Below are positions 13,299 to 18,245 of a DNA stretch of 22,546 nt, in pieces. A model generated the notes under the pieces. It was not told the origin of the DNA. It worked only from the letters and a program-made list of their open reading frames with translations, and made no database searches. Origin of the DNA: a virus; IMG/VR virus record IMGVR_UViG_3300021354_000036, positions 1-22,546 of that record, one strand, 5' to 3'. A program made the position numbers and the translations under genes. Each line of letters opens with the position of its first letter. Position 1 is the first letter of the stretch.

Positions 13299-13534
13299 GC
13301 TTGTCCCCTTGCTCGGATGATTTCAATGGCGGTAGCGTTAGGGTCATACAAATCCCATGTGTTTTGATCTTCCATCAATTTGCACAATGCCTCACGCTCA
13401 TCTTCACGCACCAGTGCGGCAAAGGCTTCAAGGTCTTCGCGTCTTTCAAATGAATGGTAGCTACCGTCAGCAGGGAATACTGCCCCAGCCTCTCGCGCCA
13501 TCTCTATGATTGTTCGTTTACGCCAGCCAGTCAT
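13295..13534 (-). CDS. Small phage protein with EREA...IRARG signature, copy 1
   Basis: The product has 79 residues; ATG 13534 follows AGGAG and overlaps the upstream stop (ATGA). It starts MTGWRKRTIIEMAREAGAVF, continues through a FERREDLEAFAALVREDEREALCKLMED helix and ends in ATAIEIIRARGQA. The second half aligns by eye with the 64-residue neighbour (FA-LV--EREA-CK and IRARGQA). The N-terminal IIEMAREAG segment is also frequent in this family of phage early proteins. No biochemical role is known to me. It may be a DNA- or host-protein-binding helical hairpin (inference). Confidence 0.7.
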   Translation of the reverse strand: MTGWRKRTIIEMAREAGAVFPADGSYHSFERREDLEAFAALVREDEREALCKLMEDQNTWDLYDPNATAIEIIRARGQA

Positions 13535-13686
13535 TTTCTGCTCCTACAAAACGCCCGTTGTTTCTGGGTTAAGTCAGGACTAAACCCCGCAACTGAACAT
13601 TCGGGGTGCTGTGGGAATACCGTATCTGCGGGAGGCAACAAATACACCGCGCAGATAATGATGCAACCAATGATAAATTCAGTCAT
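13531..13686 (-). CDS. Single-pass membrane protein, 51 residues
   Basis: ATG 13686 is preferred: GAGG lies 6 nt upstream and the start overlaps the previous stop (ATGACTGA). The longer frame from 13722 would run into the upstream gene. The product begins MTEFIIGCIIICAVYLLPPA, one strong membrane or signal-anchor segment, followed by a polar tail with two cysteines (HPECSVAGFSPDLTQKQRAFC). The tail would be periplasmic if the N-terminus stays inside. No lipobox is convincing. A small envelope protein such as an exclusion or host-modulating peptide is possible; the function is unknown. Confidence 0.6.
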   Translation of the reverse strand: MTEFIIGCIIICAVYLLPPADTVFPQHPECSVAGFSPDLTQKQRAFCRSRK

Positions 13687-13876
13687 CTTGCGCCTCATAA
13701 AGTTGGATAGCCCGTCCATCAAGCTCGTTTAATGTGTCTTCACTGAGCACTGGCACTAAATCAACGCCTTGGTACATGACTTTATCAACACCAGTGTTGT
13801 AAACGCCGTGTTCATCACGTTCAAACGTCCAGTAGACAACGACCTCCGCATCTTCCAATTGCATTCTTAATTTCAT
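13679..13876 (-). CDS. Small beta-rich protein, 65 residues
   Basis: ATG 13876 has GGAG 7 nt upstream; a TTG four codons earlier is rejected because it falls within that site. The product reads MKLRMQLEDAEVVVYWTFERDEHGVYNTGVDKVMYQGVDLVPVLSEDTLNELDGRAIQLYEAQDD: alternating strands and then an acidic helix. I do not recognise a family. It follows NinB after a 50-bp gap, the only real gap in this part of the operon, and a weak promoter may lie there. Confidence 0.6.
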   Translation of the reverse strand: MKLRMQLEDAEVVVYWTFERDEHGVYNTGVDKVMYQGVDLVPVLSEDTLNELDGRAIQLYEAQDD

Positions 13877-13913
13877 GGTTTGCTCCAAAAGACCCGAAAT
13901 AGGGCATGGCTAA

Positions 13914-13943
13914 ACTATAACCTAACTTATATGGATAGTGCAA
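13914..13943 (-). promoter_or_regulatory. Weak candidate internal promoter downstream of NinB
   Basis: On the minus strand TTGCAC (13943-13938) and TATAGT (13919-13914) are 18 nt apart. The -10 matches 5 of 6 consensus bases but the -35 only 3 of 6. It sits in the one gap of the leftward gene string, 38 bases before the next start, so it could boost the small genes that follow. It is a suggestion only. Confidence 0.3.
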
Positions 13944-14349
13944 CATCTTTGTAAATAATTCCGTTGTTGGCTCCCCACGCTTCAAGGAATGTGATGAACT
14001 CCATTGCTTGCTCTTTGGTGAAATTGCGGGTTTGGAGGCCCAATTGCACAATCCCTGTGCCATCTAAGGACGGAATGATTTTTCCGCCTTGTAGCCCTGT
14101 TTCCTTAGCAAATAGGTCTACCAACAACCGTTTCCAATCCTCTGCTGACCATTTGGCGCCCAAGTGACTAGCCTGTTCAGCTATTTCCCCAAGCATGGCG
14201 TGATATTTGGCTTCTTGGTCACGGCTTTTGGATTCGGCTTTAATCTCCATCCGCAACAGTTTTCCGGCTTTGAGGTTTTCTTTGACCTTAGGCCAAATCT
14301 TTGCCATTACTGCGCTGGCCTGTTCTTGGTTTTGTAAATGAAAAATCAT
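13927..14349 (-). CDS. ninB: NinB-family recombination protein
   Basis: The protein has 140 residues and starts inside the upstream stop (ATGA at 14349-14346). It matches the NinB family in length and motif order: an N-terminal beta segment, a LRMEIKAESKSRDQEAKYHAMLGEIAEQ block (R/K-rich strand then the conserved Q-x-KYHAMLGEI helix) and AEDWKRLLVDLFAKE. It then has GKIIPSLDGTGIVQLGLQTRNFTKEQAMEFITFLEAWGAN, the conserved ST-xLs-xemsefIe-type C-terminus. In lambda, NinB (Orf) is a mediator that binds single-stranded DNA and SSB and loads the annealing protein. That suits the Erf and exonuclease genes of the opposite operon. Confidence 0.87.
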   Translation of the reverse strand: MIFHLQNQEQASAVMAKIWPKVKENLKAGKLLRMEIKAESKSRDQEAKYHAMLGEIAEQASHLGAKWSAEDWKRLLVDLFAKETGLQGGKIIPSLDGTGIVQLGLQTRNFTKEQAMEFITFLEAWGANNGIIYKDVALSI

Positions 14350-14772: not shown

Positions 14773-14987
14773 AATTCCACCTCGTCATACCAATTTTTTT
14801 TGTCTTTTTTTGGATAGTTGGGCAAAATTGGCACTTTTTTTGACTTTTCAGTGTTTGCCCATTGGTGATGGCTGCACATCGGTTTGTCAATTTTTACAGC
14901 CCACCAGTTTGAGCAGCTAGGCACTGAGCAAAGGTTTGAATCAAAAGTTGTTTCTGGTTGATTGCTTCGAAAATTAGTTAACGCCAT
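14769..14987 (-). CDS. Small Cys/His (putative zinc-binding) protein
   Basis: The product has 72 residues; ATG 14987 follows AAGGA at about 7 nt and overlaps the DUF1376 gene by 14 bases. The middle reads LCSVPSCSNWWAVKIDKPMCSHHQW: C20, C25, C38 and H40/H41 form a plausible one-zinc knuckle. The C-terminus is Lys/Pro/Tyr-rich (ILPNYPKKDKKNWYDEVEF). Similar short Cys-knuckle proteins sit after DUF1376 replication genes in other phages, so an accessory role in replication is plausible. There is no direct evidence for nucleic-acid binding. Confidence 0.68.
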   Translation of the reverse strand: MALTNFRSNQPETTFDSNLCSVPSCSNWWAVKIDKPMCSHHQWANTEKSKKVPILPNYPKKDKKNWYDEVEF

Positions 14988-15720
14988 GATATTTTCCTTC
15001 TACTATTTTTGCAAAATTGCTTGGTTTCAAGATCCATTCAAGGTCTGCTAAAAAGGCACGACCATCTTTGCTGTTAACTCTGCCTGTCAAAAACTTAGAT
15101 GATGCAATGTGTTGAAAGAAATCAGCAAACCAGCCAAGAATGTCAGTCGCCAAAATTTTCTTTTCCTTGGATAATTCTTCAGCAACTTCGCGCCATCTCT
15201 GCCGGAGATAACCTTTCCTTGCGTCATTCCAAACTTCTACCCTTCGCAATGTTGGCAGGTGTTTGTGGTAAAGCTCAATAACTTTTTCATGGTCGCAACT
15301 CGGAAGGCCACCGTCAGGTGGACATATATTGGTATTTACTTGGTTATTAGTTATTGGTTTATCGTTTATAGTTGCCTTAGCGATGGGATGCGAGTCGGAA
15401 CCCACTGGGTTCTTTTTACGTCCTCCTAAGCGACCGTTAGCTCGATTTTTCTCAGCCATTGCATGATATTGCTCTATGACATCAGCGCATCTAGCGTGAA
15501 ACCAACCATCTTCATCTTTGGTAAACATATCCAACAGAACCCCCTGCACCACTTGGGCATCCACTCGGATGCGTCTGGCAACCCATTGGGTATCCATTGG
15601 GATTTTTTGTTCGCTGTCATAGTACATATCAAGAAGGCGGCGATATGCTAAATCCTCCTCATTAGACAGGTGAGCCGTGGCTGACCGATAGTCGCCAATG
15701 TTGAATTGGTAATAGTGCAT
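14974..15720 (-). CDS. DUF1376 (YdaU-like) phage replication protein
   Basis: The product has 248 residues; ATG 15720 follows GAGG at 8 nt. Residues 1-90 match DUF1376: MHYYQFNIGDYRSATAHLSNEEDLAYRRLLDMYYDSEQKIP, then WVARRIRVDAQVVQGVLLDMFTKDEDGWFHARC and a helix. A basic RANGRLGGRKKN stretch (93-104) and a polar linker follow. Residues 145-248 form a helical C-terminal domain ending ADLEWILKPSNFAKIVEGKYHG, as in phage replisome organiser proteins that bind an origin or recruit host helicase. Its own sigma70-like promoter and a roughly 90-nt leader precede it. The family match is clear; the exact replication role is inferred. Confidence 0.83.
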   Translation of the reverse strand: MHYYQFNIGDYRSATAHLSNEEDLAYRRLLDMYYDSEQKIPMDTQWVARRIRVDAQVVQGVLLDMFTKDEDGWFHARCADVIEQYHAMAEKNRANGRLGGRKKNPVGSDSHPIAKATINDKPITNNQVNTNICPPDGGLPSCDHEKVIELYHKHLPTLRRVEVWNDARKGYLRQRWREVAEELSKEKKILATDILGWFADFFQHIASSKFLTGRVNSKDGRAFLADLEWILKPSNFAKIVEGKYHGVN

Positions 15721-15811
15721 TGAAGCATCCTCGCAAACCTCCAGAAAAGAAACAACAGCAGGCGGGAGGTACGCTTTTCGGTACGCTCATGACTTCGTAC
15801 CTAGCTGGTTT
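15721..15811 (-). promoter_or_regulatory. 5' leader of the DUF1376 gene with competing CGTACC/GGTACG repeats
   Basis: The predicted transcript leader (about 90 nt) holds one GGTACG-type arm and two CGTACC-type arms. On the plus strand these are AGGTACG 15767-15773, GGTACG 15780-15785 and CGTACCT 15796-15802. The single arm can pair with either of the other two, so two alternative hairpins are possible. A GGAGG and a GAGG follow near the start. This could be an attenuator, a protein-binding site or part of an origin; there is no direct evidence which. Confidence 0.4.
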
Positions 15812-15817
15812 CAAAAA

Positions 15818-15846
15818 ATTATATACCGTTCAAGCCTTACTGTAAA
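15818..15846 (-). promoter_or_regulatory. Sigma70-type promoter for the DUF1376 gene
   Basis: On the minus strand TTTACA (15846-15841, 5 of 6 matches) and TATAAT (15823-15818, perfect) are separated by exactly 17 nt. It overlaps the stop codon of the upstream winged-helix gene and predicts a start near 15811, about 90 nt before ATG 15720. It is the best consensus promoter in the window. Confidence 0.72.
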
Positions 15847-16177
15847 CAATCATCCGACCATCATGTCGGCGCTCAAACTGGCTCACGCTGTAAGCCTGCT
15901 CACGTTTAGATGTATGACACTGCGTTTCCCAATTACGCCAATCAAACGCATTGATGGCCTTGGGCTTTGCTTTAACCAAATCCCAAAGCGCCTCAGACCC
16001 AAAGCCACGGTCTAAATCTCGCACTCCAACCTGTTCAATAAGCCCCTCATCAAACAGTTTTTTGCGGTAAAACCGAACCTTGGCTTTTGTAAGCATAGTC
16101 TCGCGCATGATGTCTGAAATACTTATTGGAGTTTTTCCAAAAGCTGCAAGGACTGTAAGTCTTGTTTTTTGAACCAT
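15830..16177 (-). CDS. Winged-helix DNA-binding protein of the early operon
   Basis: The product has 115 residues. From ATG 16177 it overlaps the upstream Cro-like gene by 55 bases in another frame. Shorter starts (16108, 16096) would delete the first helix of the fold. Residues 5-60 (LTVLAAFGKTPISISDIMRETMLTKAKVRFYRKKLFDEGLIEQVG) form a typical winged helix with recognition helix KAKVRFYRKKL. The second half contains AFDWRNWETQCHTSKREQ and ends QFERRHDGRMIVYSKA. It probably binds DNA as an early regulator or replication accessory protein. There is no good Shine-Dalgarno, so translation is likely coupled to the overlapping gene. The family is not recognised beyond the fold. Confidence 0.7.
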   Translation of the reverse strand: MVQKTRLTVLAAFGKTPISISDIMRETMLTKAKVRFYRKKLFDEGLIEQVGVRDLDRGFGSEALWDLVKAKPKAINAFDWRNWETQCHTSKREQAYSVSQFERRHDGRMIVYSKA

Positions 16178-16320
16178 TTTGGCTTTAAAGATTTAAGTTG
16201 ATAGATACGCATCAACGGCACATCATTACCCCACTGAGCAATGGCTGCCTGGCTGATGCCCAAAAGGGCGGCTAACTTGGTTTGTGACCCTGCAAGCCTG
16301 ATGGCGGTAGATTTTTCCAT
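16123..16320 (-). CDS. Cro-like HTH repressor, second tandem copy
   Basis: The product has 65 residues. It has an N-terminal Cro-type helix-turn-helix: STAIRLAGSQTKLAALLGISQAAIAQWGNDVPLMRIYQLKSLKPKWF, with helix 2 KLAALLGI and recognition helix QAAIAQW. It is a paralogue of the gene directly upstream (16332-16499); the pattern AI-LAGSQ-KLA-LLGIS, then W, P, RI-QLK-L-P-WF is shared. The extra C-terminal tail (KKQDLQSLQLLEKLQ) is encoded where the next gene overlaps by 55 bases and is absent from the first copy. Cro-like proteins bind operators as dimers. The natural target is the palindrome at 16568-16587, although the two copies differ in the recognition helix and may prefer different sites. 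Confidence 0.8.
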   Translation of the reverse strand: MEKSTAIRLAGSQTKLAALLGISQAAIAQWGNDVPLMRIYQLKSLKPKWFKKQDLQSLQLLEKLQ

Positions 16321-16331
16321 GTGTACTTTTT

Positions 16332-16499
16332 TTATGGCTCAATTACTTCAAACCATTCAGGACGCAACAGTTTAAGTTGCCAAATTCTTGCTTGGGGTAT
16401 CGTTTCCCACAGCCAAACAGCACCCCTGCTGATGCCCAATAGTTTGGCTAACTTGGATTGTGAACCCGCTAACTGGATTGCTTGCTGTTTAGTTATCAT
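16332..16499 (-). CDS. Cro-like HTH repressor, first tandem copy
   Basis: The product has 55 residues. ATG 16499 to TAA 16332 encodes MITKQQAIQLAGSQSKLAKL, a LLGISRGAVWLWETIPQARI block and a WQLKLLRPEWFEVIEP end. This is a minimal Cro-type domain whose recognition helix (RGAVWLW) differs from the second copy (QAAIAQW). It is the first gene of the leftward operon. A TATACT -10 ends 6 bases before the start codon, so the transcript probably begins at the A of the ATG and is leaderless; no Shine-Dalgarno is present. It is likely the switch regulator (Cro- or CI-like), acting at the divergent promoter region. The second copy starts 11 bases downstream of its stop. Confidence 0.78.
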   Translation of the reverse strand: MITKQQAIQLAGSQSKLAKLLGISRGAVWLWETIPQARIWQLKLLRPEWFEVIEP

Positions 16500-16505
16500 G
16501 TGCTA

Positions 16506-16535
16506 AGTATAGCGCAATAGACAAAAAAACAACAA
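16506..16535 (-). promoter_or_regulatory. Leftward early promoter (possibly leaderless transcript)
   Basis: The minus-strand -10 TATACT (16511-16506) matches 5 of 6 consensus bases. The -35 is weak: TTGTTG (16535-16530) at 18 nt or TTGTTT (16532-16527) at 15 nt. With the usual 6-7 base discriminator the transcript would start at 16499, the A of the first Cro-like ATG. The GCTATAC heptamer spanning the -10 (16513-16507) is also present in the palindrome at 16579-16585, so one regulator could touch both sites. Confidence 0.55.
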
Positions 16536-16558
16536 ATACCCAACTTTTTTGTGTGGGC

Positions 16559-16591
16559 TTGCATTGTTTGTATAGATTGCTATACAATGCA
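16559..16591 (+). promoter_or_regulatory. Rightward early promoter overlapping an operator
   Basis: TTGCAT (16559-16564) serves as a weak -35. At 16 nt comes TATACA (16581-16586) preceded by TG at 16578-16579, giving an extended -10 (TG-C-TATACA). TACAAT (16583-16588, 5 of 6) at 18 nt is the alternative. It would start transcription near 16594 and drive the operon beginning at 16631. The palindrome at 16568-16587 lies between and over these elements, so a bound repressor would block polymerase. Confidence 0.55.
16568..16587. promoter_or_regulatory. Palindromic operator of the divergent switch
   Basis: The arms TTGTATAG (16568-16575) and CTATACAA (16580-16587) are perfect inverted repeats around ATTG. 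The right arm extends to CTATACAATGCA, and the left side holds TGCATTG at 16560-16566, offset by a 4-base insertion, so a longer degenerate dyad exists. A third half-site GTATAGC is at 16507-16513. Size, spacing and location between divergent genes are typical of a Cro/CI-type operator. The binding protein is presumed to be one of the two Cro-like products. Confidence 0.6.
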
Positions 16592-16630
16592 CCCATGCCC
16601 TGAACATCTTGGGGTCTACTAAGGAAAATT

Positions 16631-16711: not shown

Positions 16712-16872
16712 TGGATACAACTATCCTAAAACGCGCCCGTGAGTTGTGGACAAACCCCAACGTTCCACTCTGCACCCAACGCCACAACATCCGCGCTTGG
16801 GTTAAATCTGTGCGATTCCTTGGCAACAGACATTTACTGGCAAATAAGATTATTAAGAAAGACGAATTATGA
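16711..16872 (+). CDS. Small basic protein, 53 residues
   Basis: ATG 16711 overlaps the previous TAA and is preceded by GGAGGGG. The product begins MDTTILKRARELWTNPNVPL and continues CTQRHNIRAWVKSVRFLGNRHLLANKIIKKDEL, basic and helical. TGA 16870-16872 overlaps the Erf start (ATGA). I do not recognise the family. The R-x-LW-x(n)-R-x-N-x-R-x-WV-x-S-VR-x-LG pattern could be a small nucleic-acid-binding protein. Its only clear context is translational coupling into the recombination genes. Confidence 0.6.
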   Translation: MDTTILKRARELWTNPNVPLCTQRHNIRAWVKSVRFLGNRHLLANKIIKKDEL

Positions 16873-17429
16873 AAAACCTTGCAACCGCCCTTGTCAAAGC
16901 ACAAATGGCCTTTGGCCCTGCTTTAAAGACTGCCACAAACCCTCATTTCCGTTCACGTTATGCTGACCTGTCTGCTTGTGTCGAGGCCGTCATGGACGGT
17001 TTAAACCGCAACGGCATAGCTATGATTCAACAATGCTCAGAATCAGATACCGGAGTAATTGTAGAAACCGTGTTTATCCACGAATCTGGCGAGATGCTGA
17101 ATTGCGGCAAACTCCACGTTCCCGCTGTCAAGCACGACCCACAAGGTTACGGCTCGGCTTTGACTTACGCTCGGCGTTACTCATTGATGGCGGCTTGCGG
17201 TATTGCCCCAGAAGACGATGACGGAAACGCTGCCAGCCGTAAGACAGAGATTAAGAAGTCTGAGGTTGACGAATCAAGAATGGCTGATATGTTGGCGGCA
17301 ATCGAGGCCACCACAACAGAAGAAGATTTAAAGAAGGCTTACGTTGGGGCTTATGCCTACGCTAACGGTGAACCCACTTGGCAAAAACGTGTTATTGCCA
17401 TTAAAGACAAGATGAAGGGGAAACTGTAA
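16869..17429 (+). CDS. erf: Erf-family single-strand annealing protein
   Basis: The product has 186 residues; the start overlaps the previous stop (ATGA). The N-terminal 130 residues match the ERF superfamily: LATALVKAQMAFGPALKTATNPHFRSRYADLSACVEAVMDGL, GIAMIQQ, a VETVFIHESGEML hairpin, and the signature DPQGYGSALTYARRYSLMAACGIAPEDDDGN. The C-terminus is a polar linker plus helical end, as in P22 Erf. It should anneal complementary single strands for recombination and genome circularisation. The exonuclease and NinB encoded nearby complete a recombination system. The length is typical and no key motif is missing. Confidence 0.9.
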   Translation: MKNLATALVKAQMAFGPALKTATNPHFRSRYADLSACVEAVMDGLNRNGIAMIQQCSESDTGVIVETVFIHESGEMLNCGKLHVPAVKHDPQGYGSALTYARRYSLMAACGIAPEDDDGNAASRKTEIKKSEVDESRMADMLAAIEATTTEEDLKKAYVGAYAYANGEPTWQKRVIAIKDKMKGKL

Positions 17430-17641
17430 TGAACTTGACTGACGAACAAATTATGGAAGCTGGCGATTTGGGTAACCAGATTGTTGGTTACGCTTTTGAA
17501 GAAAATGACGAAATTTCAGCATTGGCTTGTTTAATGGCGGCAGTGCCTTATTTGCTAGACGCAAAAATTGGCAAAGGTGAGGCTTGTTGGACTTTAAAAA
17601 CTTTAATGAATGGATATGAAGATGGAACAAAGAAGCCCTGA
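17429..17641 (+). CDS. Small helical protein between Erf and exonuclease genes
   Basis: The product has 70 residues; ATG 17429 overlaps the Erf TAA and follows AGGGG. The sequence MNLTDEQIMEAGDLGNQIVG, then YAFEENDEISALACLMAAVPYLL, suggests a four-helix acidic protein. The last 32 bases overlap the exonuclease start. No family is recognised. A position between annealing protein and exonuclease suggests an accessory of the recombination pair, but this is only context. Confidence 0.65.
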   Translation: MNLTDEQIMEAGDLGNQIVGYAFEENDEISALACLMAAVPYLLDAKIGKGEACWTLKTLMNGYEDGTKKP

Positions 17642-18245
17642 ATGGTTTGCGGCTCGATTGGGCAAAGTGACCGCATCGCGGGTAGCTGATGTAATTGCCA
17701 AGACAAAAACGGGTTATAGCGCCAGCCGAGACAATTATATGGCTCAACTGGTCTGCGAACGCATGACCGGAGTGCAAGGGGAAAACTATACCAATGCGGC
17801 AATGCAGTGGGGTACAGATCAAGAGCCTTTAGCCCGAGCAGCGTATGAGGCCGCACAAGACGTTTTAGTGGACGAGACAGGCTTTGTTATTCATCCAAGG
17901 ATTTCAGAGGCTGGTGCGTCTCCTGATGGCCTTGTAGGGATATTTGGCTTGATTGAGATCAAATGCCCCAACACGGCGACACACATTGAAACTATCTTGA
18001 GCGACAAAGTGCCTGGCAAGTACATTACCCAGATGCAATGGCAAATGGCGTGTACCGAAAGAGATTGGTGCGACTTTGTTAGTTTTGACCCTAGAATGCC
18101 TGAAGGACTCCAGTTATTTATTAAACGGGTTGAATTCGACTCTATTTATGTAAAAATGCTGGAATATGAAATCCAAGAGTTTTTAGATGAGCTAGAAACA
18201 AAAATTAAGAACCTTAACGAAAGAAAAAATGGCAAAAGTGCTTAA
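17610..18245 (+). CDS. YqaJ / lambda-type exonuclease
   Basis: The product has 211 residues from ATG 17610; in-frame ATGs at 17616 and 17622 are equally possible because no start has a clear Shine-Dalgarno. It shows the YqaJ recombinase motifs in order: RSPEWFAARLGKVTASRVADV (8-28), a MQWGTDQEPLARAAYE helix, GASPDGLVG with D106, LIEIKCP with E116 and K118 (PD-(D/E)xK core), and YITQMQWQMACTERDWCDFV. Such exonucleases chew one strand from double-strand ends so that the annealing protein can act. The pairing with Erf is the classical two-component phage recombinase. It overlaps both neighbours. Confidence 0.88.
   Translation: MDMKMEQRSPEWFAARLGKVTASRVADVIAKTKTGYSASRDNYMAQLVCERMTGVQGENYTNAAMQWGTDQEPLARAAYEAAQDVLVDETGFVIHPRISEAGASPDGLVGIFGLIEIKCPNTATHIETILSDKVPGKYITQMQWQMACTERDWCDFVSFDPRMPEGLQLFIKRVEFDSIYVKMLEYEIQEFLDELETKIKNLNERKNGKSA

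Follow-up and report, generated by a model that had tools for sequence, protein, structure and literature searches.

Two Cro-type genes lie in tandem at a divergent early region

The window (the whole stretch of DNA analysed) is a linear 22.5-kb virus record, represented by a single metagenomic contig. It carries two leftward genes, cro1 and cro2, separated by a gap of 11 nt (Table 1). Both exceed the curated cut-off of the Pfam P22_Cro family (PF14549; 30.2 bits), cro1 with 41.5 bits (1.1e-10) and cro2 with 45.0 bits (9.3e-12), in agreement with the first-pass annotation, which had described adjacent genes for Cro-type proteins of 55 and 65 residues. Several other points of that annotation are borne out as well. 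The proteins align almost without gaps (51 residues, one gap, 28 identical and 38 positive, 55% identity, E 2e-17), their DNA is similar, albeit in patches with a longest exact common run of about 12 bases, and their recognition helices are unlike each other, defining what we refer to as type 1 and type 2. The structure model of Cro1 has five helices, with the helix-turn-helix formed by helices 2-3 (mean pLDDT 90.7), and its top folds in the PDB are P22 Cro and N15 Cro, with a probability of 1.00 yet E-values of 0.06-0.07; the sequence-profile match to P22 Cro (1rzs) has an E-value of 1.5e-8.

The cro2 gene is without a clear Shine-Dalgarno sequence and its translation is putative. Its 3' end is overlapped by 55 nt, out of frame, by the start of a winged-helix-like gene, an arrangement also found in type-2 phages. 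Further along the contig, a metallophosphoesterase gene (PF00149; 10554-11534, + strand) faces the leftward early genes.

Table 1. Genes, operators, promoters and leader hairpins of the window
Feature	Position	Strand	Description
cro1	16332-16499	-	55 aa, ATG start; P22-Cro-type repressor, type 1; recognition helix RGAVWLW
cro2	16123-16320	-	65 aa, ATG start; P22-Cro-type repressor, type 2; recognition helix QAAIAQW
Winged-helix-like gene	15830-16177	-	115 aa; sub-cut-off HTH_5/IclR matches
DUF1376/replication-initiation-like gene	14974-15720	-	P_R operon; PF07120 6e-22; phrog_21472 and O-like families
NinB/Orf-like gene	13927-14349	-	Last gene before P3; phrog_72 2.4e-27
ERF ssDNA-annealing gene	16869-17429	+	P_L side; PF04404 3.6e-22
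YqaJ exonuclease gene	17610-18245	+	P_L side; PF09588 2.2e-30
O_R	16507-16522	-	Type-1 operator GTCTATTGCGCTATAC; covers the -10 (TATACT, 16511-16506) of leftward P_R
O_L	16570-16585	+	Perfect type-1 operator GTATAGATTGCTATAC; over rightward P_L
P_L	-35, 16559-16564; -10, 16583-16588	+	TTGCAT and TACAAT; assigned by eye
O3	13916-13931	-	Type-2 operator TATAAGTTAGGTTATA; over internal promoter P3; one mismatch to palindrome
P3	-35, 13943-13938; -10, 13919-13914	-	TTGCAC and TATAGT; 18-bp spacer; assigned by eye
5' leader hairpin	13887-13908	-	CATGCCC-loop-GGGTCTTTT; just downstream of P3
Matching 5' leader hairpin	16594-16617	+	Downstream of P_L

Operators and promoters

Conservation and covariation among relatives point to two kinds of operator; promoter elements were picked out by eye. 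Type-1 cro genes are preceded by two copies of the 16-bp palindrome GTmTAnnnnnnTAkAC; upstream of type-2 cro genes, there are likewise two 16-bp sites, with the sequence TATAAGnnnnCTTATA or near to it. One of each pair sits on the -10 of the cro promoter and the other on the divergent promoter. The spacing TATACT-N6-ATG (16499-16511 in the window) is common to cro genes of both types and, as only 6 nt separate the -10 from the cro1 ATG, the cro mRNA is probably leaderless.

The first residue of the recognition helix is associated with the outer operator bases, arginine with GT..AC and glutamine with TA..TA (9/1 versus 1/20, Fisher 4.8e-6, counting perfect palindromes only, which many loci do not have, and ignoring relatedness). 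In a study of phiKO2 Cro, the outermost bases of the 16-bp operator likewise determine specificity (PMC4997575). Longer type-1 and type-2 contigs, scanned whole, contain three sites of their own type plus a few weak extra matches; the window contains two type-1 sites and one type-2 site. The earlier proposal of two operator specificities thus stands, as helix types track operator types in relatives and the window has both at different promoters. Its companion proposal, a heterodimer, is not supported: the window yielded no operator of hybrid type, and its sequence between O_L and the start codon of cro1 departs from that of the single-Cro locus L003 at only 2/86 bases. Heterodimers acting on hybrid operators were rejected on the former ground. 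No type-2 operator was found at P_L or P_R of the window. This all-type-1 divergent region had raised the suspicion that Cro2 has no operator at all, an idea dropped once the site at 13916 was recognised as a conserved third operator (see below).

Operator-overlapped early promoters, in the window and in many relatives, are followed by a hairpin of the form CATGCC-loop-GGTCTTTT. Pairs 3 and 4 of this hairpin vary on both sides among 129 leaders matched by regular expression (a few of them spurious), a pattern scan of viral_contigs returned at least 119 stretches, and comparison of the window with Rfam gave no match.

The tandem is a join of two allele types

Relatives were gathered by scans with each Cro protein. 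Each has a single Cro at the corresponding divergent site, flanked by the DUF1376 replication gene on one side and the ERF and YqaJ genes on the other. The count of copies in relatives, to which the first-pass annotation had pointed, gives a single Cro everywhere except in the window, among 297 Cro-bearing loci in all fetched sequence (some of them overlapping on the same contigs). Scanning viral_contigs with a pattern for any Cro that precedes a type-2 Cro revealed no other tandem, a search of genome_contigs with a single protein returned two MAG contigs only, and we found nothing relevant in the literature on tandem Cro genes.

Each copy has its closest counterpart in a different phage. Cro1 shares 96% identity with the lone Cro of L003, while the nearest relative of Cro2 is the single Cro of L083 (94% over 52 tree columns); Cro2 is also 94% identical to that of L086 over matched residues. 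In a tree of 32 rows and about 52 columns, in which many finer forks are poorly separated, Cro2 falls in a supported type-2 clade with the single Cros of L083-L091 (98/98). The copies are not mutual closest relatives, as local tandem duplication would have them: sister placement of cro1 and cro2 is rejected by the AU test (p-AU 1.6e-5). They are instead separate allele types, each found in other phages as the sole Cro at this locus. The flanking DNA is divided in the same manner. To the right of 16339 it is L003-like (92% over 16339-16600), and to the left of 16320 it is L083-like (77% over 15628-16320; 88.5% over 13515-14348). Judged from the separate allele types, the rejected sister pairing and the L003-like and L083-like halves of the DNA, the cro1-cro2 locus is a mosaic join and not a duplication.

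In-situ duplication, the origin given in the first-pass annotation, was rejected on the tree and the AU test, which place the copies in distinct allele types, the kind of result that the annotation itself had named as its refutation. Adjacency, 55% identity and the unlike recognition helices are what a local duplication followed by divergence, leading to a heterodimer or to split specificity within one switch, would leave. Set against the rejected sister pairing, the 94-96% identity of each copy to a single-copy allele elsewhere, the lack of a hybrid operator and a divergent region nearly unchanged from that of a single-Cro phage, such an origin appears extremely improbable.

A mosaic boundary that falls exactly between cro1 and cro2, in a single contig without reads, could also be produced by misassembly of a type-1 and a type-2 phage. 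We regard this as very unlikely: the longest exact stretch common to the two genes is about 12 bases, a k-mer join would fuse them into a single hybrid instead of leaving both complete, and related types of junction are present in other contigs. In L195, the Cro (gene at about 1548, reverse strand) is a hybrid, with a type-1 DNA-binding N-terminal half and a type-2 C-terminal half, behind a type-1 operator. The type-1 Cro of L009 has a tail resembling that of L091, and in L003 cro1 is followed by an HNH-like gene and the C-terminal remnant of a type-2 Cro. Cassette swaps of a related kind are visible at these loci, with their junctions elsewhere; the window is the case in which the join lies between genes and both Cros survive whole. 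In L003 (5165-5473), and also in L058, L062, L072 and L074, cro is directly followed by a small HNH-like gene, which might help the mobility of the cassette.

A third operator matches the type of Cro

Our search of the window for type-2 operators returned one site, O3, at the 3' end of the ninB-like gene. One of its half-sites is imperfect, and about 0.017 such sites are expected per window at one mismatch. It is identical to the O3 of L083 in 16/16 bases and has the same position. Among single-Cro loci in which both could be read, the type of O3 is that of the Cro in 12/12: type 1 in L004 and L009/L098, and type 2 in L083, L084, L085, L086, L088, L089, L091, L101, L102 and L321 (the 31.8-kb L003 contig lacks the O3 region, and this locus is absent from the comparison). 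Members of a third clade, with helices RGAIYHW or RGAVFLW, have sites of a GTTGA type at P3, like the switch sites of that clade itself. A natural experiment is provided by L009, with a type-1 Cro, and L091, with a type-2 Cro. Around O3 their flanks differ at 27/600 positions (95.5% identical), while the operator differs at 10/17 bases (p 2.5e-9). As O3 tracks the Cro type in relatives and has been rewritten in L009, an unmatched O3 seems to be disfavoured.

The cro2 gene shows the mark of purifying selection; compared with L083 it has a dN of 0.038 and a dS of 0.45, and its only private change, I19L, is conservative. Both this selection and the link between O3 and the type of Cro speak for a functional cro2 rather than a relic, although neither is proof.

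A model for the two-repressor operon

We consider it likely that two Cro/operator systems have been merged in the window, a chimera in which a type-1 cassette was acquired by recombination and Cro2 was retained for O3. The cassette (O_L, O_R and cro1) would have recombined in front of the resident cro2 of an L083-like type-2 phage, the join falling in the short gap that separates cro1 from cro2. We infer that Cro1 binds O_R and O_L and so represses both the operon to which it belongs and, on the divergent side, the ERF/YqaJ operon. Cro2 would be transcribed from P_R behind cro1, so that both repressors would come from one message. It would then bind the old O3, about 2.4 kb downstream, and repress P3, the promoter of distal early genes. 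Because O3 would still need Cro2, being at the one promoter that answers to this repressor alone, Cro2 would have been kept. Against this model, one half-site of O3 is imperfect, cro2 has no clear Shine-Dalgarno sequence, the two-Cro arrangement is known from one metagenomic contig only, and the retention of cro2 may reflect too little time for its loss; the contig of the sister L003, in which a remnant of cro2 is left, does not include O3.

Alternatively, cro2 and O3 may both be passengers left over from a recent recombination, neither of them important now, with cro2 intact since its 3' end holds the start of the winged-helix gene, to which it may be translationally coupled. The 55-nt overlap fits this view, the near-absence of private changes in cro2 would also be expected of a very recent event, and L003 indicates that a phage can lose most of cro2. 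We nevertheless think it unlikely, as the whole cro2 frame is intact, including the DNA-binding half, and O3 goes with the type of Cro in relatives, having been rewritten in L009. A different role for Cro2 would be as a weapon that represses co-infecting type-2 phages while the switch of its carrier is immune. Type-2 phages are common relatives, and P_L and P_R of the window are without type-2 operators; the window retains a type-2 operator of its own, however, at O3, which leaves this role with only a slight probability as the main explanation. It could coexist with the retention of Cro2 for O3.

Early-gene control in an apparently virulent family

Thirty relatives of 30-39 kb were searched for the hallmarks of a lambdoid CI/Cro switch. 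The integrase family PF00589, the sole one searched, was found in 0/30; HTH_3 above cut-off, as expected for CI, was also found in 0/30, the weak matches being short and Cro-like. Between its divergent promoters the window, itself a fragment, shows no CI-like ORF. As these relatives have neither integrase nor CI, a lysis-lysogeny switch is probably not present here, and the CI/Cro switch was set aside as a candidate. The word "switch" in the first-pass annotation is misleading in this respect, a CI-type repressor gene being found neither in the window nor in relatives; nor do the two specificities appear to reside within one switch, as the second would act about 2.4 kb away. The relatives are apparently a virulent phage family, in which Cro is probably used as an early-gene damper without CI. 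Comparison with annotated phages at DNA level gave nearest matches that are weak and partial, with Methylophilales phage MEP301 heading the list.

Implications and comparison with known systems

It is a long-standing problem how a repressor can change its specificity in step with several operators at scattered sites, since any intermediate should be mis-regulated. The locus is an apparent natural snapshot of the co-evolution of repressors and their DNA sites, and it suggests a testable answer, that both repressors are kept until the distal operator has changed. There is perhaps an even chance that such repressor stacking is a route of regulatory evolution: a heterospecific Cro cassette would be added before the old Cro, giving insulated Cro1-O_L/O_R and Cro2-O3 circuits that would last up to the rewriting of O3, seen in L009, and the decay of the older Cro, seen in L003. 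If true, it would constitute an observed intermediate in a change of repressor-operator specificity. In addition, the collection matches Cro helices to operators on a large scale in nature.

Hall, Lefevre and Cordes (2005; cited in PMC4997575) reportedly correlated Cro recognition helices with operator half-sites. The covariation of recognition-helix residues with operator bases seen here is of the same kind; unlike theirs, our set is drawn from many environmental phages that have no CI, and a single phage in it carries two specificities.

P22 Cro (1rzs) and N15 Cro (2hin, 6on0) belong to the all-alpha Cro repressors, which occur in lambdoid and telomere phages. The proteins of the window resemble them in Pfam family, sequence profile, top folds (for the Cro1 model) and 16-bp palindromic operators over early promoters, and in that outer operator bases set specificity (PMC4997575). 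They differ in that no opposing CI was found, that one operon holds two heterospecific Cros, and that a further operator lies distally, at an internal promoter.

Cluster A mycobacteriophages are temperate and have one repressor with up to 30 stoperator sites (PMC6550527). A regulon of many oriented, non-promoter sites of that kind was not seen, each phage here having about three promoter-associated palindromes. Unlike Cluster A phages, the window combines three palindromic operators with two repressors; like them, our phages show repressor specificity and genome-wide sites diverging together.
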